28,669 nt of DNA from a virus, in IMG/VR virus record IMGVR_UViG_3300025849_002978, positions 1-28,669 of that record, one strand, 5' to 3'. The notes below the pieces were generated by a model that was given only the letters and a program-made list of their open reading frames with translations, was not told the DNA's origin and searched no databases. A program made the translations under genes and the position numbers. Below, one piece after another: positions 5,734 through 27,938 of this stretch. Every line of letters starts with the position of its first letter. Position 1 is the stretch's first letter.

Positions 5734-5746
5734 GAGATAAAATAAA

Positions 5747-7623
<1,877 letters not shown>

Positions 7624-7624
<1 letters not shown>

Positions 7625-13153: not shown

Positions 13154-14398
13154 GTGACATTTAAAGTAAATAACGTTGCAGTTTTGAGTCAGAGTGGAAT
13201 TCCGTTTATGTACGGATCAGGAGATGTTGACACTGCACCCAGCAATGAAACCAAGATAGTTGGTAGTGATACTGCGGATTCGGACTATTTCGGTGGGCAA
13301 GTTGCGGTAGGATCAGGTAGAATTTGTGTTGGTGCTTATGGTGATGACGATAATGGTTCTGCATCTGGTTCAGCATATATCTTTGATCTAGATGGCACTC
13401 AACTCGCCAAGATAACTGCCAGTGATGGCGCGGCGAGTGACCTGTTCGGTGCTTCAATTGCGGTAGGATCAAGTAGAATCTGTGTTGGTGCTTATGGTGA
13501 TGCTAGTCAAGCTGGTTCAGCATATATCTTTGATCTGGATGGCACTCAACTCGCCAAGATAGTTGCCAGTGATGCTGCGTCAAATGACAGGTTCGGTAGA
13601 TCAGTTGCGGTAGGATCAGGTAGAATCGTAGTTGGTGCCCTATTTGATGACGGTATCAATGACGGTAATGAGAATAATTCTGGTTCAGCATATATCTATG
13701 ATCTGGATGGTGTTCTAATAACCAAGATAGTTGCCAGTGATGTAGAGGAGAGTAAACGATTCGGTGAATCAGTCGCCGTAGGATGCGATAGAATTGTAGT
13801 TGGTGCTTCGGGGGATAGCGATAATGGTTCTTATTCTGGCGCAGCATATATCTTTGATCTGGATGGCAATCAACTCGCCAAGATAAAACCAAGTGATGGT
13901 GACATTGGCGACTATTTCGGTCGATCGGCGCCATTCGCCTCCGGCACTTCCGGAGTTGCGGTAGGATCAGGTAGAATCTGTGTTGGTGCTTATGGTGATG
14001 ACGATAATGGTACTTATTCTGGTTCAGCATATATCTTTGATCTAGATGGCACTCAACTCGCCAAGATAGATGCCAATGATGGTGCGGCAGGTGACTATTT
14101 CGGTAGATCAGTTGCGATAGGATCAGGTAGAATCTGTGTTGGTGCTTATCTGGATGACGATAATGGTTCTAATTCTGGTTCAGCATATATCTTTGATCTG
14201 GATGGCACCCAACTCGCCAAGATAGATGCCAATGATGGTGCGGCAGGTGACAATTTCGGTGCCGCAATTTCGGTAGGATGTGGTAAAATCTGTGTTGGTG
14301 CTTATGGTGATGGTAGTAGTGCTGGCGCAGCATATATTTGGGACACACCAGATGTTATTACACCGTTCGATGTAAAAGATTGGGAGAGTGGATACTAA
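13154..14398 (+). CDS. Seven-bladed FG-GAP beta-propeller protein 1
   Basis: I choose the GTG at 13154, six bases after a GGAG ribosome binding site (13144-13147), over a TTG at 13142 that overlaps that site. The protein is 414 residues: ~31 unique N-terminal residues, seven repeats of ~47-60 residues, and a short unique end (KDWESGY). Each repeat follows K-I-x-x-(S/N)-D-x(4)-(D/K)-x-F-G...(V/I)-x-V-G-x-x-(R/K)-I-x-V-G-A...SGSAYIFDLDGTQL, the FG-GAP signature of integrin-type propellers. Acidic DDDNG loops in many blades resemble the Ca-binding loops of that family. Seven units match one closed propeller. Repeat 5 has a ~9-residue insertion (APFASGTSG region). The location and a late promoter point to a virion adhesin; this is inferred. 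Confidence 0.8.
   Translation: MTFKVNNVAVLSQSGIPFMYGSGDVDTAPSNETKIVGSDTADSDYFGGQVAVGSGRICVGAYGDDDNGSASGSAYIFDLDGTQLAKITASDGAASDLFGASIAVGSSRICVGAYGDASQAGSAYIFDLDGTQLAKIVASDAASNDRFGRSVAVGSGRIVVGALFDDGINDGNENNSGSAYIYDLDGVLITKIVASDVEESKRFGESVAVGCDRIVVGASGDSDNGSYSGAAYIFDLDGNQLAKIKPSDGDIGDYFGRSAPFASGTSGVAVGSGRICVGAYGDDDNGTYSGSAYIFDLDGTQLAKIDANDGAAGDYFGRSVAIGSGRICVGAYLDDDNGSNSGSAYIFDLDGTQLAKIDANDGAAGDNFGAAISVGCGKICVGAYGDGSSAGAAYIWDTPDVITPFDVKDWESGY
13247..14340 (+). repeat. FG-GAP blade repeat array 1 (7 units)
   Basis: Seven direct coding repeats of about 145-180 bp are present, with long stretches nearly identical in DNA, such as the strand encoding AVGSGRI and the one encoding SAYIFDLDGTQL. Variation concentrates in two loops per unit. 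A 109-bp segment spanning units 2-3 (13521-13629) is exactly repeated in array 3. Confidence 0.9.
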
Positions 14399-15597
14399 TG
14401 GCCTTTAAAGACAGCGCAAGTGATATAGTAATAAGTGACAAAGGCGAACTATTGCACAAATCGTTTAATCGCCTGACTGGAACCATACAGAGTACCGAAA
14501 CCAAGATAGTTGCCAGTGATGCTGCGTCAAATGACCAGTTCGGTTTCTCAGTTGCGGTAGGATCAGGTAGAATCGTGGTTGGTGCTTCTCGTGATGATAG
14601 TCTAGCTGGTTCTAATTCTGGTTCAGCATATATCTTTGATCTGGATGGCACCCAAATCGCCAAGATAGTTGCTAGTGATGCTGATGGAGGTGACTTTTTC
14701 GGTTTCTCAGTTGCGGTAGGATCAGGTAGAATCGTGGTTGGTGCTTACAAGGCGGGCGGGGGTCATGCATATATCTTTGATCTGGATGGCACCCAAATCG
14801 CCATTATAGAAGGTACCGGTTTGCAGACAGGTGACCAGTTCGGTGCCGGAGTTGCGGTAGGATCAGGTAGAATCGTGGTTGGTGCTGATGCAGATGATGG
14901 TCTAGCTGGTTCAGCATATATCTTTGATCTGGATGGTACCCAACTAACCAGGATAAAGGCCAGTGATGCTGCGGCAGGTGACCTGTTCGGTAGATCAGTT
15001 GCGGTAGGATCAGGTAGAATCGTGGTTGGTGCTTATCGTGATGACGATAATGGTTCTAATTCTGGTTCAGCATATATCTTTGATCTGGATGGTACCCAAC
15101 TAACCAAGATAACTGCCAGTGATGGCGCGGCAGATGACAGTTTCGGTTTCTCAGTTGCGATAGGATCAGGTAGAATCTGTGTTGGTGCTTATGACGATGA
15201 CGATAATGGTTCTAATTCTGGTTCAGCATATATCTTTGATCTGGATGGCACCCAACTAGCCAAGATAAAGGCCAGTGATGGCGCGGCAGATGACGAGTTC
15301 GGTAGATCAGTTGCGGTAGGATCAGGTAGAATCGTGGTTGGCGGACATCCTCCGTACGGTGCTACTGGTTCTGGTTCAGCATATATCTTTGATCTGGATG
15401 GCACCCAACTCGCCAAGATAGTTTCCAGTGATGCTGCGAATGCTGACCATTTCGGTGTCTCACTTGCGATAGGATCAGGTAGAATCGTGGTTGGTGCTGA
15501 TTTCGATGACGATACTGCTACTGATTCTGGTTCAGCATATATCTATGATCTGGACGAAAATTTCGACACTTATATTGAAAGACAATTAGGATACTAA
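14398..15597 (+). CDS. Seven-bladed FG-GAP beta-propeller protein 2
   Basis: The start is the ATG overlapping the previous stop (TAATG at 14396-14400); an ATG further upstream at 14338 lies inside the preceding gene. The protein has 399 residues: a unique N-terminus of ~33 residues (MAFKDSASDIVISDKGELL...), seven FG-GAP blades, and a short end (YIERQLGY). Blade 2 is shortened in its loop (GAYKAGGGHAY instead of the DDDNGS-type loop), and blade 6 carries a distinct GGHPPYGATGSGS loop. The framework residues are nearly invariant and the same DNA segments recur as in the two sister genes. The different N-termini suggest that each propeller attaches to a different partner or position. Likely a receptor-binding or decoration protein of the tail; binding specificity cannot be predicted. 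Confidence 0.8.
   Translation: MAFKDSASDIVISDKGELLHKSFNRLTGTIQSTETKIVASDAASNDQFGFSVAVGSGRIVVGASRDDSLAGSNSGSAYIFDLDGTQIAKIVASDADGGDFFGFSVAVGSGRIVVGAYKAGGGHAYIFDLDGTQIAIIEGTGLQTGDQFGAGVAVGSGRIVVGADADDGLAGSAYIFDLDGTQLTRIKASDAAAGDLFGRSVAVGSGRIVVGAYRDDDNGSNSGSAYIFDLDGTQLTKITASDGAADDSFGFSVAIGSGRICVGAYDDDDNGSNSGSAYIFDLDGTQLAKIKASDGAADDEFGRSVAVGSGRIVVGGHPPYGATGSGSAYIFDLDGTQLAKIVSSDAANADHFGVSLAIGSGRIVVGADFDDDTATDSGSAYIYDLDENFDTYIERQLGY
14497..15555 (+). repeat. FG-GAP blade repeat array 2 (7 units)
   Basis: Seven direct repeats of ~140-160 bp share the framework of arrays 1 and 3. Unit 1 has the loop residues ASDAASND found also in unit 3 of array 1 and unit 7 of array 3. Confidence 0.9.
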
Positions 15598-15598
15598 T

Positions 15599-16219
15599 AT
15601 GAATTACGCAAGAATAGATACAACAACAGGTGACGTTATTGAGTTTCCTTATAGGAATAATGAACTCACTGGAAATATTCAAAGGGGCGAGACTTTACCG
15701 GATGATGTAGTTGAAGTTGATACCTACACAAATCGGCCAGCGACTGCGTGGGATGAGGTTTTACGATATGCTGATATTACTAGAAATGGTGATGCATATA
15801 TTTTAAATTATACGATTGAAGCTCGATACTTTGAAGATGATGCAGACCGTAAGAAGAAATTTCTGGCATTACATAAAACAAAAGATCAGAATAATGAGAA
15901 ACGGTTTGCATATCTGTCGGGAGAAATGGTAAAAGACTACCCTCTGTCAGAAAGGGAAAGTTGGTATGTACAGGTTTCTGAAGCAGAGAGATACCTTGCT
16001 GATAACACTTCGGTTGTACCAATGATTTCAATAATGTCCACGAATCGTGGTGAAACTGTTGATGTACTTGCTCAGAAGATTGTTGACAAAGATAACCTAA
16101 TGCGAGTGGCCTTCGGTGATTTACTCGGTCGTTATCAGGATAACAAAAACAAGTTAAACAGCATTGATACAGAAGATGATACAACTTGGAGTGCTATAGA
16201 CACAATTGGAGCATTGTAA
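15599..16219 (+). CDS. Tail fibre assembly-like protein 2
   Basis: This 206-residue protein lies between the second and third propeller genes, starting one base after the preceding stop and ending directly against the next ATG. The N-terminal half (YARIDTTTGDVIEFPYRNNEL ... ETLPDDVVEVD) resembles the extended N-termini of fibre assembly proteins. The middle is charged and helical (DDADRKKKFLALHKTKDQNNEKRF). The C-terminal half includes SEAERYLADNTSVVPMISIMSTNRGETVDVLAQKIVDKDNLMRVAFGDLLGRYQ, a pattern seen in small phage assembly proteins. It differs in sequence from the 8971-9516 protein. I infer a chaperone or adaptor for the propeller proteins, because it is embedded among them; this is not demonstrated. 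Confidence 0.55.
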   Translation: MNYARIDTTTGDVIEFPYRNNELTGNIQRGETLPDDVVEVDTYTNRPATAWDEVLRYADITRNGDAYILNYTIEARYFEDDADRKKKFLALHKTKDQNNEKRFAYLSGEMVKDYPLSERESWYVQVSEAERYLADNTSVVPMISIMSTNRGETVDVLAQKIVDKDNLMRVAFGDLLGRYQDNKNKLNSIDTEDDTTWSAIDTIGAL

Positions 16220-17440
16220 ATGCCTTATAGAAATATATCTACATTTGGTAGTTTTTTAAGCAGAGACCTAAGTTTTTATGAAGAGGATATGGGTGTTACT
16301 GATGAATATGATGATACCACTACACCCAGCAATGAAACCAAGATAACTGCCAGTGATGGTGCGTCAAGTGACGAGTTCGGTTACTCAGTTGCGGTAGGAT
16401 CAGGTAGAATCTGTGTTGGTGCTTATAGTAATGACGATAATGGTAGTCAGTCTGGTTCAGCATATATCTATGATCTGGATGGCACTCAAATCGCCAAGAT
16501 GACTGCCAGTGATGCTGCGGGAAGTGACTTTTTCGGTGTCTCAGTTGCGATAGGATCAGGCAGAATCGTGGTTGGTGCTTCGGGTGATGACGATAATGGT
16601 AGTCAGTCTGGTTCAGCATATATCTTTGATCTGGATGGCACCCAACTCGCCAAGATAAAATCAAGTGATGGTGCGGCGACTGACTATTTCGGGGAAATAG
16701 TTGCGGTAGGATCAGGTAGAATCGTGGTTGGTGCTTTGGTGGATGACGATGATGGTTCTGCATCTGGTTCAGCATATATCTTTGATCTGGATGGTACCCA
16801 ACTAACCAAGATAACTGCCAGTGATGCTAACAATGGTGACAGGTTCGGTACCTCAGTTGCGATAGGATCAGGTAGAATCGTGGTTGGTGCTAGTCTGGAT
16901 GACGATGATGGTAGTGAGTCTGGTTCAGCATATATCTTTGATCTGGATGGCACCCAACTAACCAAGATAACTGCCAGTGATGCTGCGGCGGGTGACAGGT
17001 TCGGTCACTCAGTTGCGGTAGGATCAGGTAGAATCGTGGTTGGTTCTTATGGTGATGACGTCAATGGTGGTCAGACTGGTTCAGCATATATCTTTGATCT
17101 GGATGGCACCCAACTAGCCAAGATAACTGCCAGTGATGGTGCGTCGGGTGACAGTTTCGGTTTCTCAGTTGCGGTAGGATCAGGTAGAATCGTGGTTGGT
17201 GCTTATGGTGATGGTGATGATTCTGGTTCATCATATATCTTTGATCTGGATGGCACTCAACTCGCCAAGATAGTTGCCAGTGATGCTGCGTCAAATGACA
17301 GGTTCGGTAGATCAGTTGCGGTAGGATCAGGTAGAATCGTGGTTGGTTCTTATCTGGATGACGATAATGGTGGTTCATCTGGTTCAGCATATATTTGGAA
17401 CACACCATTCGTAAAACATCATCTGGATATTTTAGATTGA
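16220..17440 (+). CDS. Seven-bladed FG-GAP beta-propeller protein 3
   Basis: The protein has 406 residues: a ~38-residue unique N-terminus (MPYRNISTFGSFLSRDLSF...), seven FG-GAP blades and the end WNTPFVKHHLDILD. It is the most regular of the three arrays: most blades keep a loop of the GDDDNGSxSGS type, which resembles acidic Ca-binding loops. The 'TPSNETKI' junction before blade 1 also occurs in protein 1 (APSNETKI), so the two share a linker although their N-termini differ. Its last blade is almost the same as the third blade of protein 1, with 109 identical bases at the DNA level. The stop overlaps the -35 element of the next promoter. Likely a tail adhesin. Confidence 0.8.
   Translation: MPYRNISTFGSFLSRDLSFYEEDMGVTDEYDDTTTPSNETKITASDGASSDEFGYSVAVGSGRICVGAYSNDDNGSQSGSAYIYDLDGTQIAKMTASDAAGSDFFGVSVAIGSGRIVVGASGDDDNGSQSGSAYIFDLDGTQLAKIKSSDGAATDYFGEIVAVGSGRIVVGALVDDDDGSASGSAYIFDLDGTQLTKITASDANNGDRFGTSVAIGSGRIVVGASLDDDDGSESGSAYIFDLDGTQLTKITASDAAAGDRFGHSVAVGSGRIVVGSYGDDVNGGQTGSAYIFDLDGTQLAKITASDGASGDSFGFSVAVGSGRIVVGAYGDGDDSGSSYIFDLDGTQLAKIVASDAASNDRFGRSVAVGSGRIVVGSYLDDDNGGSSGSAYIWNTPFVKHHLDILD
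16334..17400 (+). repeat. FG-GAP blade repeat array 3 (7 units)
   Basis: Seven direct repeats of ~145-156 bp. Positions 17232-17340 are identical to 13521-13629 in array 1, although they include a loop that is otherwise variable between blades. Confidence 0.9.
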
Positions 17441-17492: not shown

Positions 17493-18032
17493 ATGAAAAA
17501 GATAACACACTACTCTCCTATAAAAGGAGTTGATGTATATGATAATGTCTTTAGTTTAGCAAAAAGATTTGATATACAAGAGTCGGTGAAAAAATGTCCT
17601 TATCAGATAGGGTGGTCTGATAATACTGACAATTCCGAACAATATATGTTCTCTCGGTGGACTCCCGAAAAACTCAATTCAATCAATTTCTTTTCTGATT
17701 TTGTAGAGGGACATCCTTTACACGAGAAAATTAATCCCGACAAATTCATTCGTTGTATTGTAAACAATGATGTATGTACAAACACACATTGGACACATAC
17801 ACACATCAACGAAAATGTTTTTCTATATTATGTAAATATGGATTGGCAAGATCATTGGTCGGGTGAGACATTGTTCTATGATAAGAACGAGAACCACGAT
17901 ATTATCTTTGGATCGCGATTTGTGCCAGGAAGAATCATTTGGTTTGATGGAGAAATTCCACATACAATCCGGCCGCAATCGAGACTAGGTCCAAAGTATC
18001 GTTTTAGTCTGAGTATTTTCTTTGAGAAGTAG
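17493..18032 (+). CDS. 2OG-Fe(II) oxygenase-like protein
   Basis: The C-terminal half of this 179-residue protein fits small 2-oxoglutarate/iron oxygenases: THTHINENVFLYYVNMDW (101-118), W-S-G-E-T-L-F-Y-D (122-130), PGRIIWFDGEIPH (145-157), then IRPQS and YRFSLSIFF. His157 is the expected distal iron ligand and Arg170 the expected 2-oxoglutarate contact. The usual H-x-D motif is not present in obvious form; the equivalent place reads H102-T-H104-I-N106, so metal binding may differ. Possible substrates are a protein side chain, a sugar or a small metabolite. It sits three bases before the sulfotransferase gene, which suggests a two-step modification. The promoter just upstream is host-like. 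Confidence 0.72.
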   Translation: MKKITHYSPIKGVDVYDNVFSLAKRFDIQESVKKCPYQIGWSDNTDNSEQYMFSRWTPEKLNSINFFSDFVEGHPLHEKINPDKFIRCIVNNDVCTNTHWTHTHINENVFLYYVNMDWQDHWSGETLFYDKNENHDIIFGSRFVPGRIIWFDGEIPHTIRPQSRLGPKYRFSLSIFFEK

Positions 18033-18035
18033 ATT

Positions 18036-18839
18036 ATGAAAACTTATTATTTTTTGTCTGGACTTCCGCGAAGCGGCAGTTCAATGTTGTCTGCTTTGTT
18101 AAATCAAAATCCTACATTTTATAGTGGTCCAAGTTCTCCTGTATGTGGTTCGATCGTCGCACTTGAATCTTCTATAGAAAATAATGACCTGTATAAATCA
18201 TATCCAAAACCCGCGTATAAAAAAAGCATGTTGCAATCTTCATTATACAATTATTATAATGATGTAAAAGAAGATATTATTTTTGATAAGAATAGAAGTT
18301 GGACACACCGACCCGAATATATTTCAAAATATTTTGATATAAAAAATCCAAAGATTATATGTACTGTGCGAAATCTCGACGAAGTGTTAACTTCTTTCAT
18401 CGCGATGATTTCGCGAAATCAAGACAAGAAATTGAATTTTATTGATAGGTTTCTACAATCCAATAATCTTCCTCTGAATGATTTTACACGTTGTCAGTAT
18501 ATCGCATCAGATGGTCCTCTAGGAAGAGCATATACAGGATTGAAAAATGCTTTGTCGGGCGAATTAAAGGATAACATACTCTTAGTTGAATATTCTGATC
18601 TAGTAGAAAATACAGACGCGACTATGAAATCAATCTATAATTTTATAGAACAACCCTATTATCAACATGATTATAAAAATCTATATAATAAACATAGAGA
18701 GAAGGATAATAAAGTCTATGGATTGTCTGATATGCATCATGTCAGTTCTAAAATAAAATACTATTGTAGAAAGCCAGCGGATGTTTTGCCTCCACAAGTT
18801 ATAAGTGATGTGCGGGGTCTTGAGTTCTGGAGACAATAA
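18036..18839 (+). CDS. Sulfotransferase
   Basis: This 267-residue protein carries both PAPS-binding signatures of the family. The 5'-phosphosulfate loop is LSGLPRSGSSMLSALL (PRSGSS at residues 11-16). The 3'-phosphate motif is IICTVRNLDEVLTSFIAM (108-124), with Arg112 and Ser120 in the expected places. A F-D-K-N-R-S-W segment (83-89) also matches Sulfotransfer-type enzymes. No membrane segment is seen. The enzyme would transfer sulfate from PAPS made by the host to a hydroxyl or amine, most plausibly on a glycan, although a protein or small-molecule acceptor is possible. It follows the oxygenase-like gene by three bases and precedes the gp13 late promoter. Sulfotransferases are known as accessory genes in marine phages. 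Confidence 0.82.
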   Translation: MKTYYFLSGLPRSGSSMLSALLNQNPTFYSGPSSPVCGSIVALESSIENNDLYKSYPKPAYKKSMLQSSLYNYYNDVKEDIIFDKNRSWTHRPEYISKYFDIKNPKIICTVRNLDEVLTSFIAMISRNQDKKLNFIDRFLQSNNLPLNDFTRCQYIASDGPLGRAYTGLKNALSGELKDNILLVEYSDLVENTDATMKSIYNFIEQPYYQHDYKNLYNKHREKDNKVYGLSDMHHVSSKIKYYCRKPADVLPPQVISDVRGLEFWRQ

Positions 18840-18887: not shown

Positions 18888-19631
18888 ATGGCAGTCCCTG
18901 CTACACGTTCTGATTTTAAAGAATACTGCCTGCGATCACTCGGCAAACCTGTCATCGAGATCAACGTTGATGACGATCAAGTCGACGATCGTATTGACCA
19001 GGCAATACGTTTCTATTGGGATTATCACTTTGATGGAACCGAAAAAACGTATTATAAACATCAGATAGACGCGAATACGATATCAACGCAGTCGATTACT
19101 CTTCCCGAGAATATCATTGGTGTTGTTAAGATATTTGAACTCGGCGATCCTACCTCATCCACTGGTGATCTGTTTAATATAAAGTATCAAATCGCACTCA
19201 ACGACATGCATACATTGTCTAATATTGGACTTACAAACTATTATGCGACAATGACACATCTTGGACTTGTTCAAGAGATGCTTGTTGGCAAAACTCCGAT
19301 ACGTTATAATCGCCATCGCGACATTTTACACCTCGACAAAACTAAATCTACTATGACTGTTGGGCAGTATTTGTTAGTGGAGGCTTATGAGGTTGTTGAT
19401 CCTGATGTATACACTGATGTGTGGGCAGATCGTTGGTTACAACATTATACTGCACAACTCATTAAAAGGCAATGGGGTTCAAACCTAACAAAGTTTGAGG
19501 GATTACAATTACCGGGCGGCGTGACATTTAATGGCAATAAGATATACGATGATGCCGATACCGAAATTAAGAGATTGGAAGAAGAAATGATTAACAATTA
19601 TTCCCTCCCTGTTTCTGATATGTTGGGATAA
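18888..19631 (+). CDS. gp13: Neck protein gp13
   Basis: This 247-residue protein starts with the segment RSDFKEYCLRSLGKPVIEINV, followed by DDDQVDDRIDQAI and FYWDYHFDGTEKTYYKH, which I recognise as the conserved N-terminus of T4-like gp13 in marine myoviruses. T4 gp13 is longer (about 309 residues). In T4, gp13 and gp14 form the head completion or neck complex that seals the portal after packaging and joins the tail. Here gp14 follows after four bases and gp15 comes next, as in T4. The gene begins the structural operon, behind its own late promoter and a good RBS. Confidence 0.88.
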   Translation: MAVPATRSDFKEYCLRSLGKPVIEINVDDDQVDDRIDQAIRFYWDYHFDGTEKTYYKHQIDANTISTQSITLPENIIGVVKIFELGDPTSSTGDLFNIKYQIALNDMHTLSNIGLTNYYATMTHLGLVQEMLVGKTPIRYNRHRDILHLDKTKSTMTVGQYLLVEAYEVVDPDVYTDVWADRWLQHYTAQLIKRQWGSNLTKFEGLQLPGGVTFNGNKIYDDADTEIKRLEEEMINNYSLPVSDMLG

Positions 19632-19635
19632 TTAC

Positions 19636-20364
19636 ATGACAACCAACGTCTTCTTCAATAATTTTCAGAGTTATGCAGAACAAAATCTAATCGAAGATTT
19701 GATCATTGAATCAATTAAAATCTACGGTCATGATTTGTATTACTGCCCGAGAACAATTGATGAACAAGATGATATTTTTGGAGAAGTTACCGTTGCCTCC
19801 TATAATGATGCATATCTGGTTGAAATGTATATTAAGAATGTTGAGGGGTTTGAGGGTGAAGGTGACTTTCTCTCTAAGTTCAATATTCAGATTCGTGATG
19901 AAATTACCTTCACTGTTTCACAGAGAGTATTTTCCAACGAAATAGGCGCGCCAGAAATACAGGTTCGGCCTGAAGAAGGTGACTTGATATTTTTCCCACT
20001 TACCGGTAAAGTATATGTTATCAAGATTGCTGAACATGAAGCACCTAACTTTTATCAAATGGGTGCCTTACAGTGTTATGATTTGCGTTGCGAATTGTTT
20101 GAATATAGTCATGAAGATTTAAATACAGGCGTTCCTGAGATTGACAATTTAGAGAAATTATATTCTGAAAATATTGCCGTGTCAAACGCCGACTCAACAT
20201 ATGCGAACGGTGATATTATTATGGACGCGAACACTGGACGACCAGTTTCCGCACCTGATTACACTACTGATGATCCATTTTCCGAGAATGCTACGTTCCA
20301 GTCATCCGGTGCTGATATTATAGACTTCACCGAAACAAATCCTTTCTCAGAAGGGTCTATCTAA
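19636..20364 (+). CDS. gp14: Neck protein gp14
   Basis: This 242-residue protein, close to the T4 length (about 256), begins with NVFFNNFQSYAEQNLIEDLIIESIKIYGHDLYYCPR, the typical opening of gp14 in T4-like phages. A beta-rich core follows (EVTVASYNDAYLVEMYIKNVEGFEGEGDFLSKF, TFTVSQRVF, RPEEGDLIFFPLTGKVYVI). Together with gp13 it should build the neck and close the DNA-filled head. It starts four bases after gp13 and ends one base before gp15, so the three genes are tightly packed. The C-terminal ~50 residues are polar and low in complexity, and probably flexible. Confidence 0.88.
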   Translation: MTTNVFFNNFQSYAEQNLIEDLIIESIKIYGHDLYYCPRTIDEQDDIFGEVTVASYNDAYLVEMYIKNVEGFEGEGDFLSKFNIQIRDEITFTVSQRVFSNEIGAPEIQVRPEEGDLIFFPLTGKVYVIKIAEHEAPNFYQMGALQCYDLRCELFEYSHEDLNTGVPEIDNLEKLYSENIAVSNADSTYANGDIIMDANTGRPVSAPDYTTDDPFSENATFQSSGADIIDFTETNPFSEGSI

Positions 20365-20365
20365 T

Positions 20366-21226
20366 ATGTTTGGTCAAACTTTCGCACATGGTACACTTCG
20401 AAAATATGTCATACTGTTTGGCACATTATTTAACGATGTGTGGATTAATCGCAAAGATTCTGATGGTAATGTTAAGGCATCATTCAAAGTTCCTCTCGCA
20501 TATGGACCAAAAGAAAAGTTTCTTGCTCGTATTGATGGAGTTGATCAAGACCTCGATCCAATGGATCAGCCATTCGCAATTACATTACCGAGAATGGGAT
20601 TTGAAATCACCGGGTTTAGTTATGCGCCTGAGAGAAAATTGCCAACAATTCGACGATTTGTAACGACACCATCAGATGCGGATGAAGATCAAAAGAGATA
20701 CCAGTATAACCCAGTGCCTTATGATATTCAGTTTTCTTTGTCAATTTTTGTAAAGACTGTTGATGATGGTACTCAGATCATAGAACAGATTCTACCGTTT
20801 TTTACTCCTGAGTGGACAACGACAGTTCAGTTGATTTCTGATCCAGATATTACTCTTGACATTCCTCTGGTTCTAACAGGCACCTCACAAGATGATGTGT
20901 ATGAAGGTTCGTTTGAGGAAAGAAAGTCGTTGATCTTTACCTTTGATTACACGATGAAAGGATTCTTCTTTGGACCTACCAAGAAGAGTGAGATCATCAA
21001 ACTCGCGAATACTCAGTTATATGATGCGACACTGTTTAACGACATTGATGATGCTGTTGGCAACACTGATGTTATATCGAGAATTACAGTCACACCAGGT
21101 CAAACAGCAAACGGCGCGGCTACATCAAACGCATCTTTGACTGTTTCTTCCAATAATATCTCTTCTGATGAAAACTTTGGTTATATAGTGGACATAGATG
21201 AAACATTCCCAGATGATGGAGCATAA
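20366..21226 (+). CDS. gp15: Tail sheath stabiliser / terminator gp15
   Basis: This 286-residue protein, near the T4 size (about 272), opens with FAHGTLRKYVILFGTLFNDVWI and contains VPLAYGPKEKFLARI, a segment typical of gp15. There are further matches at LPRMGFEITGFSYAPERKL, the RYQYNPVPYDIQFSLSIFVK strand region, and FTFDYTMKGFFFGPTKK. In T4, gp15 forms a hexameric ring capping the completed tail tube and sheath and docking it to the neck. The last ~60 residues (from ~NTDVISRITVTPGQT) are Ser/Asn-rich and acidic, and are likely disordered. The gene lies between gp14 and the small terminase, as in T4. Confidence 0.9.
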   Translation: MFGQTFAHGTLRKYVILFGTLFNDVWINRKDSDGNVKASFKVPLAYGPKEKFLARIDGVDQDLDPMDQPFAITLPRMGFEITGFSYAPERKLPTIRRFVTTPSDADEDQKRYQYNPVPYDIQFSLSIFVKTVDDGTQIIEQILPFFTPEWTTTVQLISDPDITLDIPLVLTGTSQDDVYEGSFEERKSLIFTFDYTMKGFFFGPTKKSEIIKLANTQLYDATLFNDIDDAVGNTDVISRITVTPGQTANGAATSNASLTVSSNNISSDENFGYIVDIDETFPDDGA

Positions 21227-21227
21227 T

Positions 21228-21644
21228 ATGTCAGATGATATAATCGGTGAAGTTCTTGATCTTACTCCAATGCCAAAAGAAGAAAACATTCCGACAACTT
21301 ATGAACCTACTATGTCCTCTAATAGACAGGCAGAAACAGATGTAGCATATGTTCGTAAGAATATGTACGACTTAATAGAGAAGGGTACTAGGTCAATGGA
21401 TGAGTTATTAACAATTGCTGATCAATCGCAACATCCTAGATCATATGAGGTTCTCTCAGGACTGATTAAAAATATGAGCGAACTGAATAAAGATTTAATT
21501 GATCTTCACGACAAGAAAAAGAAACTCTTAAATACTGAACAAGAAAATGTGTCACCCAACACCGTAAATAATAATTTATTTGTTGGGTCTACGAGTGATT
21601 TATTAAAAATGATTAATCAAGAGAATGATGTCAGTACCGATTAA
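21228..21644 (+). CDS. gp16: Small terminase subunit gp16
   Basis: I start at the ATG at 21228, six bases after a GGAG site (21218-21221) and one base past the gp15 stop; an in-frame ATG at 21198 lies inside gp15. The protein has 138 residues (T4: about 164). The centre is predicted helical: DVAYVRKNMYDLIEKGTRSMDELL, then SYEVLSGLIKNMSELNKDLIDLHDKKKKLL. That is consistent with the coiled-coil oligomerisation core of T4-type small terminases, which regulate the packaging motor and recognise DNA. The Q-H-P-R-S-Y-E-V-L-S-G segment is characteristic of this family in T4-like phages. The gene overlaps gp17 by 20 bases. Confidence 0.85.
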   Translation: MSDDIIGEVLDLTPMPKEENIPTTYEPTMSSNRQAETDVAYVRKNMYDLIEKGTRSMDELLTIADQSQHPRSYEVLSGLIKNMSELNKDLIDLHDKKKKLLNTEQENVSPNTVNNNLFVGSTSDLLKMINQENDVSTD

Positions 21645-23280
21645 AGATATTGAAGAATATAGATCGTATTTGGGTAACACCAATTTAAAAAGACACGGTG
21701 TAGATATTTCGTGGACGGAGGATATGATCCGCGAATATGTAACTTGTTCATCTGATCCGATTTATTTTTCAGAAAAATATATTCAAATAGTCCATGTAGA
21801 TCGTGGTTTAATACCTATTGATCTATATGATTATCAGAGAGATATCATTGAAAAGACAACAAACAACCGAAGAACATGTGTCGTTACAGCGCGGCAGTCT
21901 GGTAAAACAACGACTGCTGTATGTCTTATACTTCATTATATTCTTTTCAATAATCATAAACTTGTCGCTCTACTCGCTGATAAAGGAGACTCTGCAAGAG
22001 AAATATTGGATCGTATCAAAACAGCTTACGAAGCATTACCAAAATGGTTACAACAAGGAGTCGTGGAATGGAACAAAGGATCAGTAGAGTTTGAAAATGG
22101 ATCAAAGATCATCGCAACCGCTACTTCCTCTACTGCTATTCGTGGCAAATCCGTATCTTTCCTATACATTGACGAGACAGCTTTCGTTACGAACTGGGAT
22201 CAATTCTTCGCCGCAGTATTTCCAACAATATCTTCAGGCACAACCACAAAAATATTGCTTACATCTACACCAAACGGATTGAATCATTTTTATAAAACTT
22301 GTGAAGGTGCCCGAGAAGGTAAAAATGGATATCAGTTTGTATCTGTAATGTGGTATGATGTTCCTGGTCGCGACGAGAATTGGAAACAAGAAACGCTCGC
22401 CGCGCTGGACTTTGACACTGAGAAGTTCGCACAAGAAATGGAGTGTGAATTTCAAGGTAGTAGTGGTACACTTATATCAGGTAATAAACTAAAACAACTT
22501 GTGTATCGTGAACCGATTGAAGAAAAGAATGGTCTGTCTATGTTCTATAGACCGGTGATCGATCACAATTACACTATTGTGGTTGATGTTTCTCGCGGTA
22601 AAGGATTAGATTATTCGGCATTTCAAGTCATAGACACCACTCAAATGCCTTATATGCAAGTATGTGCATATCGTGACAATATGATTTCTCCGATGGATTA
22701 TTCTTCAGTAATCCATAGAATAGGTACTTTCTATAATGAAGCACAAATTCTTGTTGAGGTTAATGATATTGGTGAACAAGTCTCCAGTACATTATATGAA
22801 GATTTTGAATATGAGAATATGTTATTCACTGAAAATGCCGGCCGCGGCGGGAAACGATTAACTACTGGATTCTCATCAAAGTCTGATAAGGGTGTACGAA
22901 CAACAAAAACCGTTAAGTCGGTAGGTTGTTCTATACTGAAATTGTTGATTGAACAGAACCAACTGATAATAAATGATTTTGATACGATTAAAGAATTGTC
23001 AACATTCAGTAAAAAAGGTGTAGGATGGGAAGCCGAATCTGGATGTCATGATGATCTTGTGATGGGACTTGTACTCTTTGCTTGGGTATCTAATCAGAAA
23101 TTCTTTAAAGAATTAACTGATATAAATACTATTAGTCAGTTACGAGAAATGAATGATGAACAACTGATGAATGAATTAACTCCTTTCGGAATCATTGATG
23201 ACGGGCAGGATCACTTTGAAGATAACCCTCCCATGGCGGTAAAAGGTAATGCATTTCTTTTTGCCGACGATGAACGGTGA
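21625..23280 (+). CDS. gp17: Large terminase subunit gp17 (packaging ATPase and nuclease)
   Basis: This 551-residue protein (T4: about 610) shows the full motor signature. Walker A is ARQSGKTT at residues 89-96, Walker B is FLYIDE at 179-184, and the coupling motif is TSTPNG at 213-218. The C-terminal RNase H-like nuclease has acidic residues at Asp321 (VVDVSRG), Glu378 (VEVND) and Asp476/Asp477 (CHDDLVMG), matching the three-acid site of T4 gp17. It powers DNA translocation into the prohead and cuts the concatemer. The N-terminal region is shorter than in T4. Two consecutive Met codons open the frame and either could start it. The gene is followed by a ~100-base intergenic region with two promoters. 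Confidence 0.96.
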   Translation: MMSVPIKDIEEYRSYLGNTNLKRHGVDISWTEDMIREYVTCSSDPIYFSEKYIQIVHVDRGLIPIDLYDYQRDIIEKTTNNRRTCVVTARQSGKTTTAVCLILHYILFNNHKLVALLADKGDSAREILDRIKTAYEALPKWLQQGVVEWNKGSVEFENGSKIIATATSSTAIRGKSVSFLYIDETAFVTNWDQFFAAVFPTISSGTTTKILLTSTPNGLNHFYKTCEGAREGKNGYQFVSVMWYDVPGRDENWKQETLAALDFDTEKFAQEMECEFQGSSGTLISGNKLKQLVYREPIEEKNGLSMFYRPVIDHNYTIVVDVSRGKGLDYSAFQVIDTTQMPYMQVCAYRDNMISPMDYSSVIHRIGTFYNEAQILVEVNDIGEQVSSTLYEDFEYENMLFTENAGRGGKRLTTGFSSKSDKGVRTTKTVKSVGCSILKLLIEQNQLIINDFDTIKELSTFSKKGVGWEAESGCHDDLVMGLVLFAWVSNQKFFKELTDINTISQLREMNDEQLMNELTPFGIIDDGQDHFEDNPPMAVKGNAFLFADDER

Positions 23281-23301
23281 ACTATGAGAAATATCAAATC
23301 T

Positions 23302-23309
23302 TATAAATA
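23302..23309 (+). promoter_or_regulatory. T4-type late promoter for gp18
   Basis: An exact TATAAATA box lies about 75 bases upstream of the gp18 start, in the longest intergenic gap of the structural operon. Confidence 0.78.
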
Positions 23310-23347
23310 AAAAATAGAAGAAAAACTTAAAGCACAATAATTTAAAA

Positions 23348-23356
23348 TGCTATAAT
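23348..23356 (+). promoter_or_regulatory. Possible extended -10 host-type promoter for gp18
   Basis: TGC-TATAAT is a perfect extended -10 element, 28 bases before the gp18 ATG, with a GGGAG ribosome binding site in between. A -35-like TTAAAG lies 18 bases upstream but matches poorly. This would add host or middle-type transcription to the late promoter just upstream. Confidence 0.45.
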
Positions 23357-23383
23357 TGAAAACCAATAAAGGGAGAAAACACT

Positions 23384-25693
23384 ATGCCTTTTCAACTTAG
23401 TCCGGGCGTAAATGTCACCGAAGTAGATTTGACTACTGTAATTCCAGCAGTATCTACTACTGAAGCAGCAATCGGTGGTGTTTTTCGTTGGGGACCAGTA
23501 GACAAACCACTACTGATTCAAAACGAAGATCAGTTAGTTGACCGATTCGGTAAACCGACTAACGCAAACTACGAAACATTTTTTAGCGCCGCAAACTTCT
23601 TGGCATATGCTGATGCCTTATATGTAAGTCGCGCACATCACTCAACTGGTAATACTTTTTCATTCAGTGGAGCCACAACAACAGCAGCTAATGCCACTGT
23701 AACTGTTAGTAACACAACCGGCATCGCTGTTGGAGATGCTGTATTTGGTCCAGGTATACCAGCTGACGCAACCGTCGCATCGGTTACTAGTAATACCGCG
23801 TTTGAACTGTCTGTAGCTGCTACTGCAAACAGTGTTGCCGCAGCGGACATTCAAGTCTTTGATGCCAACTATTCATTCAATGCGATTGCAAATACCAATA
23901 TTGCAAACCTAGCCTCTCAAATCACAAAGAATGATGAGGACTATATTACCGCGGAAGGCAACTATGATTCAGATGTTCAATTTGTAGCAAAGTATCCTGG
24001 AGAACTCGGTAACTCTCTGCGTATCTCAGTATGTGACAGTGCCGCTGCCTTTAGTAGCAACACCAATCTATTGACTGTACAGTCTGCTAATACCAGCGGA
24101 AACACTGCTGATCACGTTGAAACAGCGAATATCGCTTTCACAATTGGTTCCAACACTGCTACAATTTCTGTCGGTGCGACGGCAAATGGTGATGCGAACT
24201 CAAGTTCAGGCGCGCTTACAACAATAATCGGAACTTTAGCTGTAAATGACTTAGTTCGAGCAGGCAATAGTTCTGTAGGTGAACAGGACTTAGTGATCAC
24301 CTCAATCGGTGTTATCAATAAAACAGTGGTCGAGGAATCAGAAAACGGCGAAGCAACTGTTGTTATCAACTTCAGCGATCGATTTGTTCTGAGTTCTGAC
24401 TTCTCAGATACAACTCTACGAAGACTCTGGGGCGGTGCTGGTCTTGTGAATAAAGCACCCAAGCAATCACCCTATCAACTAGCAAACGGTAACACTGCCG
24501 CTCAAGATGAGATGCACGTTATTGTTTATGATGAAGATGGTAAGATTTCAGGTATACCTGGCACTGCTCTTGAAGTGTATGAGGGACTATCTCGCGCAAC
24601 TGACGCGAAAACTCTTGATGGTGGAAATAACTACTATAAAGATGTCTTGAATACAACTTCAGAATATGTTTGGTACGGGCACGACATATCTGGCGCTGCT
24701 TCTGCAACCTCTGATAACTTAGCGTCCTCCACTAACACTGCACCCTATAGTAAGTCATTTGTTGGCGGTCGTGATACCAAAAACGAAACCAACATTGCGG
24801 TTGGAGATGTTATTAATGCATATGACCATTATAAGTCAGCAGAAGATATCGATATCTCTCTACTCATCACCGGCAAATCTCGTGGTGGTTCTGTAGGACA
24901 ACAACTTGCCAACTATCTGATAGATAACATTGCTGAAACGCGAAAAGACTGTCTTGTATTCTGTTCGCCCGATCGTGCTGATGTTGTCAACCAGACTTAT
25001 GGTGACACCGAGCAACAGGTCCTTGCTTTCAGAGATGCACTTCGATCAACTTCTTATGGTGTGCTTGATTCTGCATACAAGTATCAATATGACAAGTATA
25101 ATGATCAATATCGGTATGTTCCTTTGAACGGCGATACTGCTGGTTTGACTGCATATACCGCAGACACTAATGATGCGTGGTGGTCACCTGCTGGATTCAA
25201 TCGTGGTCAAGTAAAGAACATTCTTCGTCTTTCTTGGAATCCTAAGAAGGCAGAACGCGATGTACTTTATTCAAATGGTGTAAACCCAGTTGTCAACTTC
25301 CCCGGACAAGGTACTGTATTATTCGGCGACAAGACTCTTCTGGCGAAACCATCCGCCTTTGATCGGATCAATGTTCGTCGTCTGTTTATCGTTCTTGAGA
25401 AGGCGATTGCGACATCTGCTAAGTTTACTCTGTTTGAGTTCAACGATTCATTTACTCGTGCTTCATTCGTCAATCTAGTGACACCGTTCCTGCGTAATGT
25501 ACAGGGTCGTCGTGGTATTACTGATTTTGTTGTAATCTGTGACGAAACAAACAATACTGGAGAAGTTGTTGATCGCAATGAGTTTATTGGTGATATATAC
25601 ATCAAACCTGCTCGATCCATTAACTTCATTCAGCTGAACTTTGTTGCTGTTAGGTCTGGCGTAGAATTCTCCGAAGTTATCGGTCAATTTTAA
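23384..25693 (+). CDS. gp18: Tail sheath protein gp18
   Basis: This 769-residue protein is longer than T4 gp18 (about 659). The N-terminus (LSPGVNVTEVDLTTVIPAVSTTEAAIGGVFRWGP) and C-terminus (FLRNVQGRRGITDFVVICDE, YIKPARSINFIQLNFVAVRSGVEF) are clear sheath signatures. These ends form the interlocking arms and the core that contracts around the tube. The extra length lies mainly after the first ~90 residues, where an Ala/Thr/Ser-rich beta segment (TVTVSNTTGIAVGDAVFGPG ... SNTAFELSVAATANS) and later a second one (ETANIAFTIGSNTATISVGATANGD) look like surface-exposed insertions. It precedes the tube gene, as in T4. Transcription probably uses the late promoter at 23302 and possibly a second, host-like one. 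Confidence 0.96.
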   Translation: MPFQLSPGVNVTEVDLTTVIPAVSTTEAAIGGVFRWGPVDKPLLIQNEDQLVDRFGKPTNANYETFFSAANFLAYADALYVSRAHHSTGNTFSFSGATTTAANATVTVSNTTGIAVGDAVFGPGIPADATVASVTSNTAFELSVAATANSVAAADIQVFDANYSFNAIANTNIANLASQITKNDEDYITAEGNYDSDVQFVAKYPGELGNSLRISVCDSAAAFSSNTNLLTVQSANTSGNTADHVETANIAFTIGSNTATISVGATANGDANSSSGALTTIIGTLAVNDLVRAGNSSVGEQDLVITSIGVINKTVVEESENGEATVVINFSDRFVLSSDFSDTTLRRLWGGAGLVNKAPKQSPYQLANGNTAAQDEMHVIVYDEDGKISGIPGTALEVYEGLSRATDAKTLDGGNNYYKDVLNTTSEYVWYGHDISGAASATSDNLASSTNTAPYSKSFVGGRDTKNETNIAVGDVINAYDHYKSAEDIDISLLITGKSRGGSVGQQLANYLIDNIAETRKDCLVFCSPDRADVVNQTYGDTEQQVLAFRDALRSTSYGVLDSAYKYQYDKYNDQYRYVPLNGDTAGLTAYTADTNDAWWSPAGFNRGQVKNILRLSWNPKKAERDVLYSNGVNPVVNFPGQGTVLFGDKTLLAKPSAFDRINVRRLFIVLEKAIATSAKFTLFEFNDSFTRASFVNLVTPFLRNVQGRRGITDFVVICDETNNTGEVVDRNEFIGDIYIKPARSINFIQLNFVAVRSGVEFSEVIGQF

Positions 25694-25699
25694 TAAATA
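25692..25699 (+). promoter_or_regulatory. Likely late promoter (AATAAATA) for gp19
   Basis: The box AATAAATA differs from the T4 consensus only at the first base, a position known to vary in marine T4-like phages. It overlaps the gp18 stop and lies 25 bases before the gp19 ATG, with AGGAG between them. Confidence 0.5.
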
Positions 25700-25723
25700 G
25701 ATAAAATAATAGGAGAATAAAAA

Positions 25724-26230
25724 ATGGCTTTCAGTATTGAATCATTTAAGAATGGCGCGATCGCAGCGGGTGGGTATCGTCCTGCCCTGTTCGAAGTGCA
25801 AGTCACACGATTAGGTAATCCCATGAACTTCCTTTGTCAGGCCTCGCAAGTTCCTGGAATGACAATGGGAGTAATTGAGGTTCCTTACTTTGGTCGTAAG
25901 ATCAAAGTTGCTGGCGATCGAACATATGCCGAATGGACAACAACGCTCATGATTGAAGAAGACTTCGCTCTGCGAAATGAGTTAGAGGATTGGCAAGAAG
26001 CAATTAACTCTGCTGCTGGTAATACTCGTGATGAAGTCTTTGAAGCATATAAGACTGACGCAGAAGTTTTCTTGTATGGTAAGGGTGGAGGCAGTGCGCT
26101 TCGTTCTTACAAACTCGAAGGTTGTTGGCCAACAGATGTAGGTACTATTGAATTGGATTGGAATACAACTGATACAATCGGTACTTATTCTGTGACATGG
26201 GCATTTGATGTGATGGCTCCCGGTAGTTAA
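25724..26230 (+). CDS. gp19: Tail tube protein gp19
   Basis: This 168-residue protein is nearly the T4 length (about 163). The segments GGYRPALFEVQVTRLG, FLCQASQVPGMTMGVIEVPYFGRKIKVAGDRTYAEWTTTLMIEEDFALRNELEDW and SYKLEGCWPTDVGTIELDW are the conserved core of the T4-type tube fold. It polymerises as stacked hexamers to form the channel inside the sheath. It lies directly after gp18, with an AGGAG site and a late-type promoter in a 30-base gap. The gene is followed by a strong terminator hairpin, so very high transcription of gp18-gp19 may be separated from the portal gene. Confidence 0.96.
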   Translation: MAFSIESFKNGAIAAGGYRPALFEVQVTRLGNPMNFLCQASQVPGMTMGVIEVPYFGRKIKVAGDRTYAEWTTTLMIEEDFALRNELEDWQEAINSAAGNTRDEVFEAYKTDAEVFLYGKGGGSALRSYKLEGCWPTDVGTIELDWNTTDTIGTYSVTWAFDVMAPGS

Positions 26231-26258
26231 TACCATCGAGCGCAAACTTCGTCACATA

Positions 26259-26294
26259 TGGGGGCATAAATATCTTTATGCCCTCACTTTTTTT
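26259..26294 (+). terminator. Rho-independent terminator after gp19
   Basis: A stem of nine perfect pairs (GGGCATAAA 26262-26270 with TTTATGCCC 26275-26283) extends by three more pairs, one of them G-U, around a four-base TATC loop. After two more bases comes a run of seven T (26288-26294). The left arm itself contains a late-type box (CATAAATA). Confidence 0.88.
26265..26272 (+). promoter_or_regulatory. Likely late promoter (CATAAATA) for gp20, inside the terminator stem
   Basis: CATAAATA matches NATAAATA and sits 40 bases before the gp20 ATG, with CGGAG (26298-26302) in between. It occupies the left arm and loop of the gp19 terminator. The match may follow from the palindrome rather than from function. 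Confidence 0.5.
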
Positions 26295-26312
26295 ATTCGG
26301 AGTTGAATTATA

Positions 26313-27938
26313 ATGGATTTATTTGGTTTTCAAATTAACAGAAAAAAAGAGGAAAAGGAACAAGAGAAAGTTGTTTCTTTCGTACCTCCATCCAATGACG
26401 ATGGTTCGTTAACCATTGCATCGGGTGGAGTTTATGGTACATATGTTGATCTAGACGGCAGTGTTAGAACTGAAGCGGAACTTGTAACCAAGTACCGAAC
26501 AATGGCATTGGATCCTATTGTTGATCTCGCTGTTCAAGATATTTGCAATGAAGCAATTGTTGAAGATTCTGATGAAGAAACTGTTCAATTGGTACTCGAC
26601 AATCTAAAAGTTAGTGATAGCATTAAGAACAGTATCCGTAAAGAGTTTACCACATTATTACAAAAACTTGAGTTTGATTATTTGAGTTACGAAATATTCC
26701 GTCGGTGGTACATTGATGGTCGATTATACTATCATGTCATTATTGATGAAAGTAAACCAAACAAAGGAATTATTGAACTTCGTTATATTGATCCAAGATA
26801 TATCAAGAAAGTTCGTGAAGTAAAAAAAGAAAAGACAGCACAAGATGTGACTGTTGAAAAAGTTGTTGCAGAATATTACATTTACAATCCAGCAGGTTTT
26901 TTGAACCGATCAAATTCAACCGGCGGTTCTGGCCAGTCAGCTGGTATCAAGATTTCAAAAGACTCAATTGCTTATTGTACCAGTGGTATACAAGCAACAG
27001 ACAATAATTTAATTCTTTCATATATGCATAAAGCGATTCGACCATTGAATCAGTTACGATCTATGGAAGACTCTCTTGTTATCTATCGTATATCAAGAGC
27101 ACCAGAACGCAGAATTTTTTATGTTGATGTTGGTGGACTGCCAAAAGCAAAGGCAGAACAGTATCTAAACAGCATCATGACAAAGTTTAAAAATAAAGTT
27201 GTGTATGATTCAGGCACGGGTGAAGTTCGAGATGATCGTAAGTTTATGACGATGCTTGAGGATTTCTGGTTACCGAGACGAGATGGTGGTCGTGGTACAG
27301 AAATCACTACATTGCCAGGTGGTCAGAATCTCGGTGAAATAGAAGATGTACAATATTTTCAGAATCTTTTGTATAAGTCTCTGAATGTTCCAATTACTCG
27401 TTTACAGTCTGATTCTACATTTTCATTAGGTCGTGCCACTGAGATCACAAGAGATGAAGTAAAGTTCTCTAAGTTTATTACTCGTTTGAGAAATAAGTTC
27501 AGCGAACTGTTTAATAAACTTCTTGAACAACAGTTGTTACTAAAGGGTATTTGTACGCCTGATGATTGGAAAGAGTGGCGACATATAATACAATACGATT
27601 ACGCGATTGATAATTATTTTCATGAACTAAAGCAAATGGAAATATTTCGTGATAGAGTAAGCCTTTTGCGAGAGATGGAAGAGTCGATCGGTACATATTA
27701 CTCACACGAATACACGCGGCGACAAATTCTTCAACAAAGTGAAGAAGACATTAAAAGTATTGATGAACAGATTGCCAGTGAAAAGAATGATCCGAGATAT
27801 GCTGATGCTGATATGGATTTTGAAGGTGACGATGATGATGAACCAGAATCAAAACCAGAACCAAAACCAGAACCACCGGAAGATAAACAACCGGATGAAG
27901 TAGAACAAGACAACGAAGAAGAATCTGAACAAAAGTAA
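26313..27938 (+). CDS. gp20: Portal protein gp20
   Basis: This 541-residue protein is close to T4 gp20 (about 524). Conserved portal segments include TKYRTMALDPIVDLAVQDICNEAIV, SYEIFRRWYIDGRLYYHVIID, IELRYIDPRYIKKVREV, the long helix-turn IRPLNQLRSMEDSLVIYRISRAPERRIFYVDVGGLPKAKAEQYL, and FWLPRRDGGRGTEITTLPGGQNLG. It forms the dodecameric vertex through which DNA enters and to which the neck and tail attach, and it nucleates prohead assembly. The last ~55 residues (DFEGDDDDEPESKPEPKPEPPEDK...) are an acidic, Pro-rich tail, likely disordered. The upstream terminator and late-type box suggest its own transcription start. The gp67-like gene follows. Confidence 0.96.
   Translation: MDLFGFQINRKKEEKEQEKVVSFVPPSNDDGSLTIASGGVYGTYVDLDGSVRTEAELVTKYRTMALDPIVDLAVQDICNEAIVEDSDEETVQLVLDNLKVSDSIKNSIRKEFTTLLQKLEFDYLSYEIFRRWYIDGRLYYHVIIDESKPNKGIIELRYIDPRYIKKVREVKKEKTAQDVTVEKVVAEYYIYNPAGFLNRSNSTGGSGQSAGIKISKDSIAYCTSGIQATDNNLILSYMHKAIRPLNQLRSMEDSLVIYRISRAPERRIFYVDVGGLPKAKAEQYLNSIMTKFKNKVVYDSGTGEVRDDRKFMTMLEDFWLPRRDGGRGTEITTLPGGQNLGEIEDVQYFQNLLYKSLNVPITRLQSDSTFSLGRATEITRDEVKFSKFITRLRNKFSELFNKLLEQQLLLKGICTPDDWKEWRHIIQYDYAIDNYFHELKQMEIFRDRVSLLREMEESIGTYYSHEYTRRQILQQSEEDIKSIDEQIASEKNDPRYADADMDFEGDDDDEPESKPEPKPEPPEDKQPDEVEQDNEEESEQK

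Follow-up and report, generated by a model that had tools for sequence, protein, structure and literature searches.

The virus record IMGVR_UViG_3300025849_002978 of IMG/VR, 28,669 bases long and called here the window, carries three adjacent genes for FG-GAP proteins, which we name types A, B and C and refer to together as the trio (Table 1). In the window the trio sits between fibre genes and neck genes. The three open reading frames (ORFs) score 311 (A), 308 (B) and 372 (C) bits against PF14312 (FG-GAP_2), where the cut-off is 23, and each protein holds seven FG-GAP_2 stretches, giving 21 blades in all. The type A gene starts with GTG (13154), with GGAG just upstream. An initial annotation of the window had described three neighbouring paralogues with seven repeats each, and these are indeed present, all far above the family cut-off.

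Predicted fold and variable loops

An AlphaFold2 model of the type C protein, built on an alignment of 25 rows, predicts a closed seven-bladed propeller (predicted local distance difference test, pLDDT, 87.9; predicted template modelling score, pTM, 0.88), with residues 1-28 below a pLDDT of 50. The best 50 matches listed for this model in the PDB are all integrin entries, the best of them having a Z score of 42.1 and a root mean square deviation of 2.5 over 342 residues; this match starts at model residue 34, where integrin residue 1 aligns. In integrins the N-terminal strand closes the propeller ring (described in the accessible text of PMC3192720). The N-terminal strand of type C most likely closes the ring in blade 7 in the same way, because the predicted strand 37-42 precedes blade 1 and blade 7 has three strands of its own. 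For the C protein the model is thus consistent with seven four-stranded blades in a closed ring, as in the integrin type, the last strand of blade 7 being assigned from strand order and the integrin alignment, and the closed propeller foreseen in the initial annotation was obtained for this one of the three proteins. Judging from strand order and topology, the D-A and B-C loops would share one face of the propeller, and the A-B (GSGR) and C-D (DLDG) loops the opposite, conserved face, on which the N- and C-tails would both exit. The closest structural matches in BFVD include giant-virus proteins named collagen-repeat or FG-GAP (Mimivirus LCMiAC01 and others).

Blade pairs from the same window protein differ at 58% of the positions in the D-A and B-C loops, which form one face, at 7.5% of those in the opposite loops and at 20% of the strand positions. 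Over 189 blades, from 27 proteins of the window and of the related contig groups L034, L036, L037, L041, L043, L054, L055, L057 and L059, the corresponding values are 60%, 20% and 16%; the codon-identity, face and loop counts given here refer to this set, outside which L121, L126, L131, L137 and L139 lie. Among the columns that vary most in the window are 11 and 14, flanking the FG, 29 (after GA), 36 and 8. Tyr, Trp, Arg, Phe and His make up 46% of residues at loop columns 11, 14, 28 and 29, versus 10% elsewhere. The blade comparison therefore confirms a near-invariant framework with two variable loops per blade, and variation that is concentrated on one face rather than spread evenly over the framework. 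The location of this variation is a property of the family, because a control of 130 bacterial FG-GAP_2 blades has these columns, too, among its most variable ones. Framework columns 19-22, by comparison, have a variability of 0.62-0.66 in the bacterial blades versus 0.02-0.41 in the phages. What is unusual in the trio is the near-fixed framework, the set of tags described below and the turnover, and not where the variation sits.

The initial annotation had also likened the variable loops to the ligand- and calcium-binding loops of integrins, an analogy that does not hold for calcium. The variable loops are 4-1 (D-A) and 2-3 (B-C), whereas the integrin calcium site (DxDxDG) is located in the 1-2 loop, according to the accessible text of PMC3192720. 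DxDxDG occurs in none of 28 proteins, which rules out integrin-type calcium-binding loops, and the 1-2 loop reads GSGR in 18 of the 21 window blades. The proline of the GAP (Cage) motif is likewise absent from the column after GA in all 21 window blades; 44 of 168 other phage blades have a proline there. The trio is integrin-like in fold but is not an integrin-type calcium propeller.

The trio in related phages

Besides many relatives, pattern scans of IMG/VR found seven contigs that belong to the same virus as the window. Three adjacent FG-GAP genes, one each of A, B and C, occur in ten contig groups (window, L034, L036, L037, L041, L043, L054, L057, L121 and L126), which form seven clusters because window/L054, L034/L037 and L041/L043 were treated as related. 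The gene order is A-B-C in eight groups and B-C-A in two (L041, L043). When L055 and L059 are added, 32 of 33 trio proteins have seven blades, the exception being the C protein of L126, with five. Three adjacent but divergent FG-GAP genes in L139 were excluded from the trio count.

Other arrangements of FG-GAP proteins also exist. The A/B/C trio is not shown by L112, L104, L124 or L137: L112 (2810-7680) has four adjacent propellers with other tails, which seem to alternate between two kinds, L104 (4185-7578) has two adjacent FG-GAP proteins of 564 amino acids, and L137 also has a pair. FG-GAP stretches are found inside large proteins in L049-L053, L061 and S-MbCM6, and those of S-MbCM6 are modules within a giant virion structural protein next to baseplate wedge genes. 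A search of 50,697 phage records with the type C protein matched 15, and the surroundings of the three that were viewed (S-TIM5, S-MbCM6 and S-SCSM2R) hold no trio. In L102 (5467-11626) an FG-GAP protein of 913 amino acids lies near two photosystem-like genes, which by eye we take to resemble psbA and psbD of photosystem II; L102 is regarded as cyanophage-like because of these neighbours.

Within the trio, the tails follow the type of the gene. For C-tails, the closest one from a different cluster shares the type in 33 of 33 cases. For the N-tail this holds in 30 of 31 cases with the last ten residues removed, and in 28 of 31 with whole N-tails including the closing strand; two truncated N-tails (L054 A and L059 B) did not enter the tail tests. 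Propellers agree in type with their closest match from a different cluster in only 8 of 30 cases, a count that, like the propeller tree, excludes the L126 propellers. Consistently, 2 changes of type suffice on the tail tree, where shuffled labels average 16.0. The propeller tree takes 16 such changes (14.6 with shuffled labels, 186 of 200 shuffles being as low); for genome labels it needs 14 changes versus 23.3 when shuffled (as low in 0 of 200), and the tail tree 30. The tail tree is partly circular, because the A/B/C labels were assigned from the tails; the separate nearest-neighbour test of N- and C-tails is less so. Clustering of propellers by genome is incomplete: the nearest propeller is in the same genome cluster in 21 of 30 cases, not all, and L034/L037, L041/L043 and L054/L059 intermix in the propeller tree.

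Where two blades agree in a framework residue, they also share its codon in 81.5% of comparisons if they belong to one protein, in 81.2% if they belong to different proteins of a genome and in 46.7% if the genomes differ. This homogeneity is not an effect of codon bias, because equal residues at different columns of a genome share their codon in only 33-45%. The longest exact tracts shared between genes measure 109 bp for A and C of the window, 114 in L036 and 106 bp in L041, and most blades of all three genes of L121 use YG, VIG and YDLDGNLITKLTA. Since the blades are homogenised at synonymous sites too, the blades of the three genes of a genome evolve in concert by recombination. The modular set with three N-terminal anchors on a common scaffold, as proposed in the initial annotation, thus stands in that the N-tails differ and are type-specific across clusters; that annotation had overlooked the tags at the C-terminus, the recurrence of the A/B/C set among phages and the fact that blades evolve in concert among the three genes.

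Rate of change at the loops

The sister contigs L054 and L059 differ at 253 positions in 2,755 bp of FG-GAP genes versus 19 in 2,386 bp outside. Synonymous divergence (dS) is 0.035-0.040 and nonsynonymous divergence (dN) 0-0.006 in two flanking genes, the C-type tails (65 codons, this type only) are identical, and the propellers have a dN of 0.105 and a dS of 0.103. With loop positions chosen from the window alone, and with counts that ignore recombination, loop dN is 0.37, four times the dS of 0.09 in the rest of the blades, and amino-acid changes affect 38 of 87 loop codons versus 63 of 539 others. In L034/L037 loop dN is 0.96 versus a dS of 0.37 elsewhere in the blades, and identity is 94% in the tails and 75% in the propellers.

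Blade positions can still be recognised in L054/L059 (12 of 14 best matches) but no longer in L034/L037 (4 of 21) and window/L054 (1 of 21). Between the window and L054, three neck-region proteins are 81-88% identical, and same-type FG-GAP proteins 47-58%. The comparison of relatives thus bears out the turnover that the initial annotation had expected, with loops changing and blade positions being lost. L126 and L128 differ at 114 of 1231 bp inside FG-GAP versus 142 of 3464 outside. In the L049 group, variants inside and outside the FG-GAP gene number 29 and 0 (L050), 17 and 14 (L051), 0 and 45 (L052) and 0 and 1 (L060). Variation within a population was also considered and is almost absent from near-identical contig sets.

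Companion gene and neighbouring genes

The companion gene of Table 1 lies directly downstream of the B gene in all five loci found with one (window, L036, L041, L055 and L121), and no ORF occupies this position in L034, L037, L043, L054, L057 or L126. A relative of it in Pasteurella phage Pmp6 follows an annotated tail fibre gene. The companion, which has no Pfam match above the cut-off and no informative family, is thus placed right after a fibre or adhesin gene, as a chaperone might be, and it is possibly a fibre-assembly chaperone.

Nine ORFs near the trio in seven contig groups (window, L034, L036, L037, L043, L057 and L126) were compared with Pfam. Eight of them carry Peptidase_S74 (one each in the window, L034, L036, L037, L057 and L126, two in L043), and the ninth (window 8289-8954) has no Pfam match. 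S74 fibre genes adjoin the trio in L034, L036, L037, L043, L057 and L126; in the window the S74 gene is 5.5 kb upstream, with a glycosyltransferase and an FkbM methyltransferase on the minus strand in between. The collagen-like S74 fibre of the window is likely a member of the same host-recognition module as the trio. The relative in S-TIM5 is annotated in its record as virion structural.

A protein of 1,390 amino acids (window 1561-5733) has a weak match to SBBP beta-propeller repeats, and the same fibre module may hold in it a second, unrelated kind of propeller. From position 33 up to a point at 3,250-3,500, the window is about 78% identical to the 94,927-bp contig G001, and identical thereafter; the abrupt boundary (window 33 to about 3,300-3,500) sits within the gene of this protein and is either a recombination breakpoint or an assembly joint. 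The top-ranked match of the window terminase is that of Sinorhizobium phage phiM12 (57.6%). In G004, the record of L036, matches to the terminase large subunit fall in three separated pieces (4500-8768; 28-35% identity), as if split by intervening sequences. A megablast match in P-HM2 lands in the portal gene and not in FG-GAP, and PHROG "polynucleotide kinase" matches of the FG-GAP proteins cover only stretches of 9-19 residues and were ignored.

Table 1. Features of the trio and its surroundings in the window.
Feature	Position	Strand	Basis
FG-GAP propeller type A: N-tail ...GIPFMYGSGDVDTAPSNETK, seven blades, C-tail DTPDVITPFDVKDWESGY	13154..14398	+	ORF, Pfam
FG-GAP propeller type B: N-tail MAFKDSASDIVISDKGELLHKSFNRLTGTIQSTETK, seven blades, C-tail DLDENFDTYIERQLGY	14398..15597	+	ORF, Pfam
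FG-GAP propeller type C: N-tail MPYRNISTFGSFLSRDLSFYEEDMG..., seven blades, C-tail NTPFVKHHLDILD	16220..17440	+	ORF, Pfam, model
Codons 37-42 of type C (SNETKI), predicted strand, likely fourth strand of blade 7 (ring closure)	16328..16345	+	Model; blade 7 assignment inferred from strand order
Companion, 206 amino acids, possible fibre-assembly chaperone; PHROG 2618/1604 (function unassigned there)	15599..16219	+	Position
Collagen-like tail fibre with C-terminal Peptidase_S74 chaperone domain	5747..7624	+	Pfam
FkbM methyltransferase and two-domain glycosyltransferase, opposed to the fibre-gene direction	9770-13065	-	Family search
2OG-Fe(II) oxygenase-like (below cut-off) and sulfotransferase genes, downstream of the trio	17493-18839		Pfam
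T4-type neck, sheath stabiliser, terminase, sheath, tube and portal genes	18888..27938	+	Structural context

Discussion

We propose, with a probability of roughly two in three, that the trio proteins are host-recognition adhesins that carry address tags and exchangeable binding faces, and that they are most likely the tips or accessory heads of tail fibres encoded nearby. According to this proposal, each protein would be a closed seven-bladed integrin-like propeller whose type-specific N- and C-tails exit the conserved face and serve as address tags A, B and C, fitting either three distinct docking sites or a heteromeric tip. The conserved face would point toward the virion, and the loop face, formed by the 4-1 and 2-3 loops of the seven blades, toward the host as the binding surface. 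The framework would be kept uniform by recombination among a genome's 21 blades, which would also move loop variants between blades and genes, and selection for new binding specificities would favour amino-acid change at the loop positions. Support comes from the repeats, the predicted closed fold of type C, the orthology of the tails, the concerted blades and the loop amino-acid excess in two sister pairs. The location in the virion we infer from the neighbouring genes and the annotation of relatives, and receptor binding is plausible on good grounds; the binding face, the role of the tails and the action of selection are presumed.

With this in mind, one may speculate that these phages diversify their receptor-binding proteins without a reverse transcriptase. 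Three permanently tagged slots (A, B and C) would draw on one pool of 21 interchangeable blades, swapped by homologous recombination on the homogenised framework, so that a lineage would go on presenting its three binding faces in fresh combinations, with an effect similar to that of gene conversion in immune receptors. To this extension of the proposal we give somewhat less than even odds.

Several observations weigh against the adhesin proposal. The predicted fold comes from a model of one of the three proteins, the structural search gave the companion no clear fold match, and the contigs are metagenome assemblies of repeats, in which error is possible; several contigs agree base for base, but the samples may share a project. 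The bacterial blades of the control vary at the same columns. Loop dS is itself raised, to 0.33 in L054/L059 and 0.56 in L034/L037, so that dN/dS within the loop class is just 1.1 and 1.7, respectively; selection is for this reason not separated from imported sequence, and some of the excess could arise, even if selection is absent, from loops that were imported or mutated more often. L126 differs from L130 at 92 of 1227 bp inside FG-GAP versus 340 of 1893 outside, and from L131 at 371 of 2397 versus 340 of 1893, so that in two of three L126 comparisons FG-GAP is not more variable than its neighbours. Finally, the only FG-GAP variants among the seven near-identical contigs of the window virus are one substitution and an indel pair in L013; five further contig sets have none. 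Because near-identical contig sets hardly vary, the turnover is evolutionary and not within-population.

Part of these observations would be expected if there were no selection for diversity, with exposed loops drifting or arriving by recombination under relaxed constraint and exchange homogenising the rest. The variable columns shared with bacterial FG-GAP_2 proteins, the propeller dS of 0.10 in L054/L059 compared with 0.04 in the flanks, the low dN/dS within the loops and the missing FG-GAP excess in two of the three L126 comparisons all fit this explanation. Nevertheless, codons that differ only synonymously in L054/L059 are no commoner at loops (4 of 87) than elsewhere (21 of 539), in contrast to amino-acid changes. 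Codons with several changes account for some of the raised loop dS, and Tyr, Trp, Arg, Phe and His are enriched at loop positions; we give the explanation a minor but real chance. It is rather unlikely that the trio proteins are virion proteins other than primary receptor binders, for example capsid, neck or baseplate decorations that loosely hold glycans or mucus and raise the encounter rate. The position of the window trio between fibre and neck genes would suit such decorations, the assignment to fibres being itself deduced, but several contig groups have S74 fibre genes next to the trio, in Pmp6 a member of the companion family comes after a tail fibre gene, and the FG-GAP stretch of S-MbCM6 is part of a giant protein beside baseplate wedge genes.

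Since the presence of the trio in virions is deduced from context, the proteins might instead be secreted or intracellular, for instance enzymes or superinfection-exclusion factors. This appears very improbable, as FG-GAP stretches lie within proteins annotated virion structural in isolated cyanophages and the trio genes lie within the structural module of the window phage. Mutation of the loops by a diversity-generating retroelement (DGR) has the least to recommend it. Targets of DGRs in phage adhesins do have variable codons on a fixed framework, which the trio resembles; their codons are AAY-derived, and the loop codons here include TGG, GAA, CAG and AGA. No RVT_1 match was found in seven incomplete trio contigs (longest 151 kb), a control search being positive in 3 of 14 genomes, and there is almost no within-population variation. 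On these grounds a DGR origin was set aside as highly improbable.

Adhesins that vary loops on a fixed scaffold, and single propellers in receptor-binding proteins, are already known from phages. The T-even adhesin gp38 carries hypervariable loops on a constant scaffold at the fibre tip, and mutations there changed receptor specificity (accessible text of PMC12892980). The trio would resemble gp38 of T2-type phages in this respect. However, gp38 is described in that text as a poly-glycine II (PGII) sandwich, whereas the trio would consist of three propellers whose blades are homogenised across the genes; no gp38 family is among its Pfam matches, and the predicted fold is not the PGII sandwich with its glycine-rich motifs. 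Beta-propellers do occur in phage receptor-binding or baseplate proteins, such as the five-bladed one of the phi11 receptor-binding protein and the seven-bladed one of PhiKZ gp131C, but these, as far as the accessible text of PMC4901313 goes, are domains of one larger protein, and the trio consists of three stand-alone tagged propellers. The nearest single counterpart is cyanophage S-TIM5 gp054 (NC_019516), first in the BFVD structural listing, a stand-alone FG-GAP protein that is annotated as virion structural; it is a single gene with other tails and another closure register (six full repeats with partial ones at both ends).

The integrin alpha-chain N-terminal propeller and its bacterial counterparts (accessible text of PMC3192720) share with the trio the seven FG-GAP blades, the N-terminal strand that most likely closes blade 7 and the 342-residue structural match, but the trio lacks the DxDxDG calcium motif and, in the 21 blades of the window, the GAP proline, and it has near-uniform blades and a phage context. 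Branched tailspike complexes of Ackermannviridae (accessible text of PMC11414711) unite several receptor-binding proteins of one phage in one complex; these are tailspikes, not propellers. The initial annotation knew of no described fibre system of this form, and in the open-licence literature (subscription papers were outside the search) we found no description of three address-tagged propellers with concerted blades; the novelty does not extend to the location of the variable columns, which is common to bacterial FG-GAP_2 proteins.

If our proposal is true, it explains how several binders can be diversified at once while their assembly stays fixed. The trio points to residues that likely decide host range in uncultured phages, and it would offer propeller scaffolds that are naturally tagged and accept change in their loop faces.

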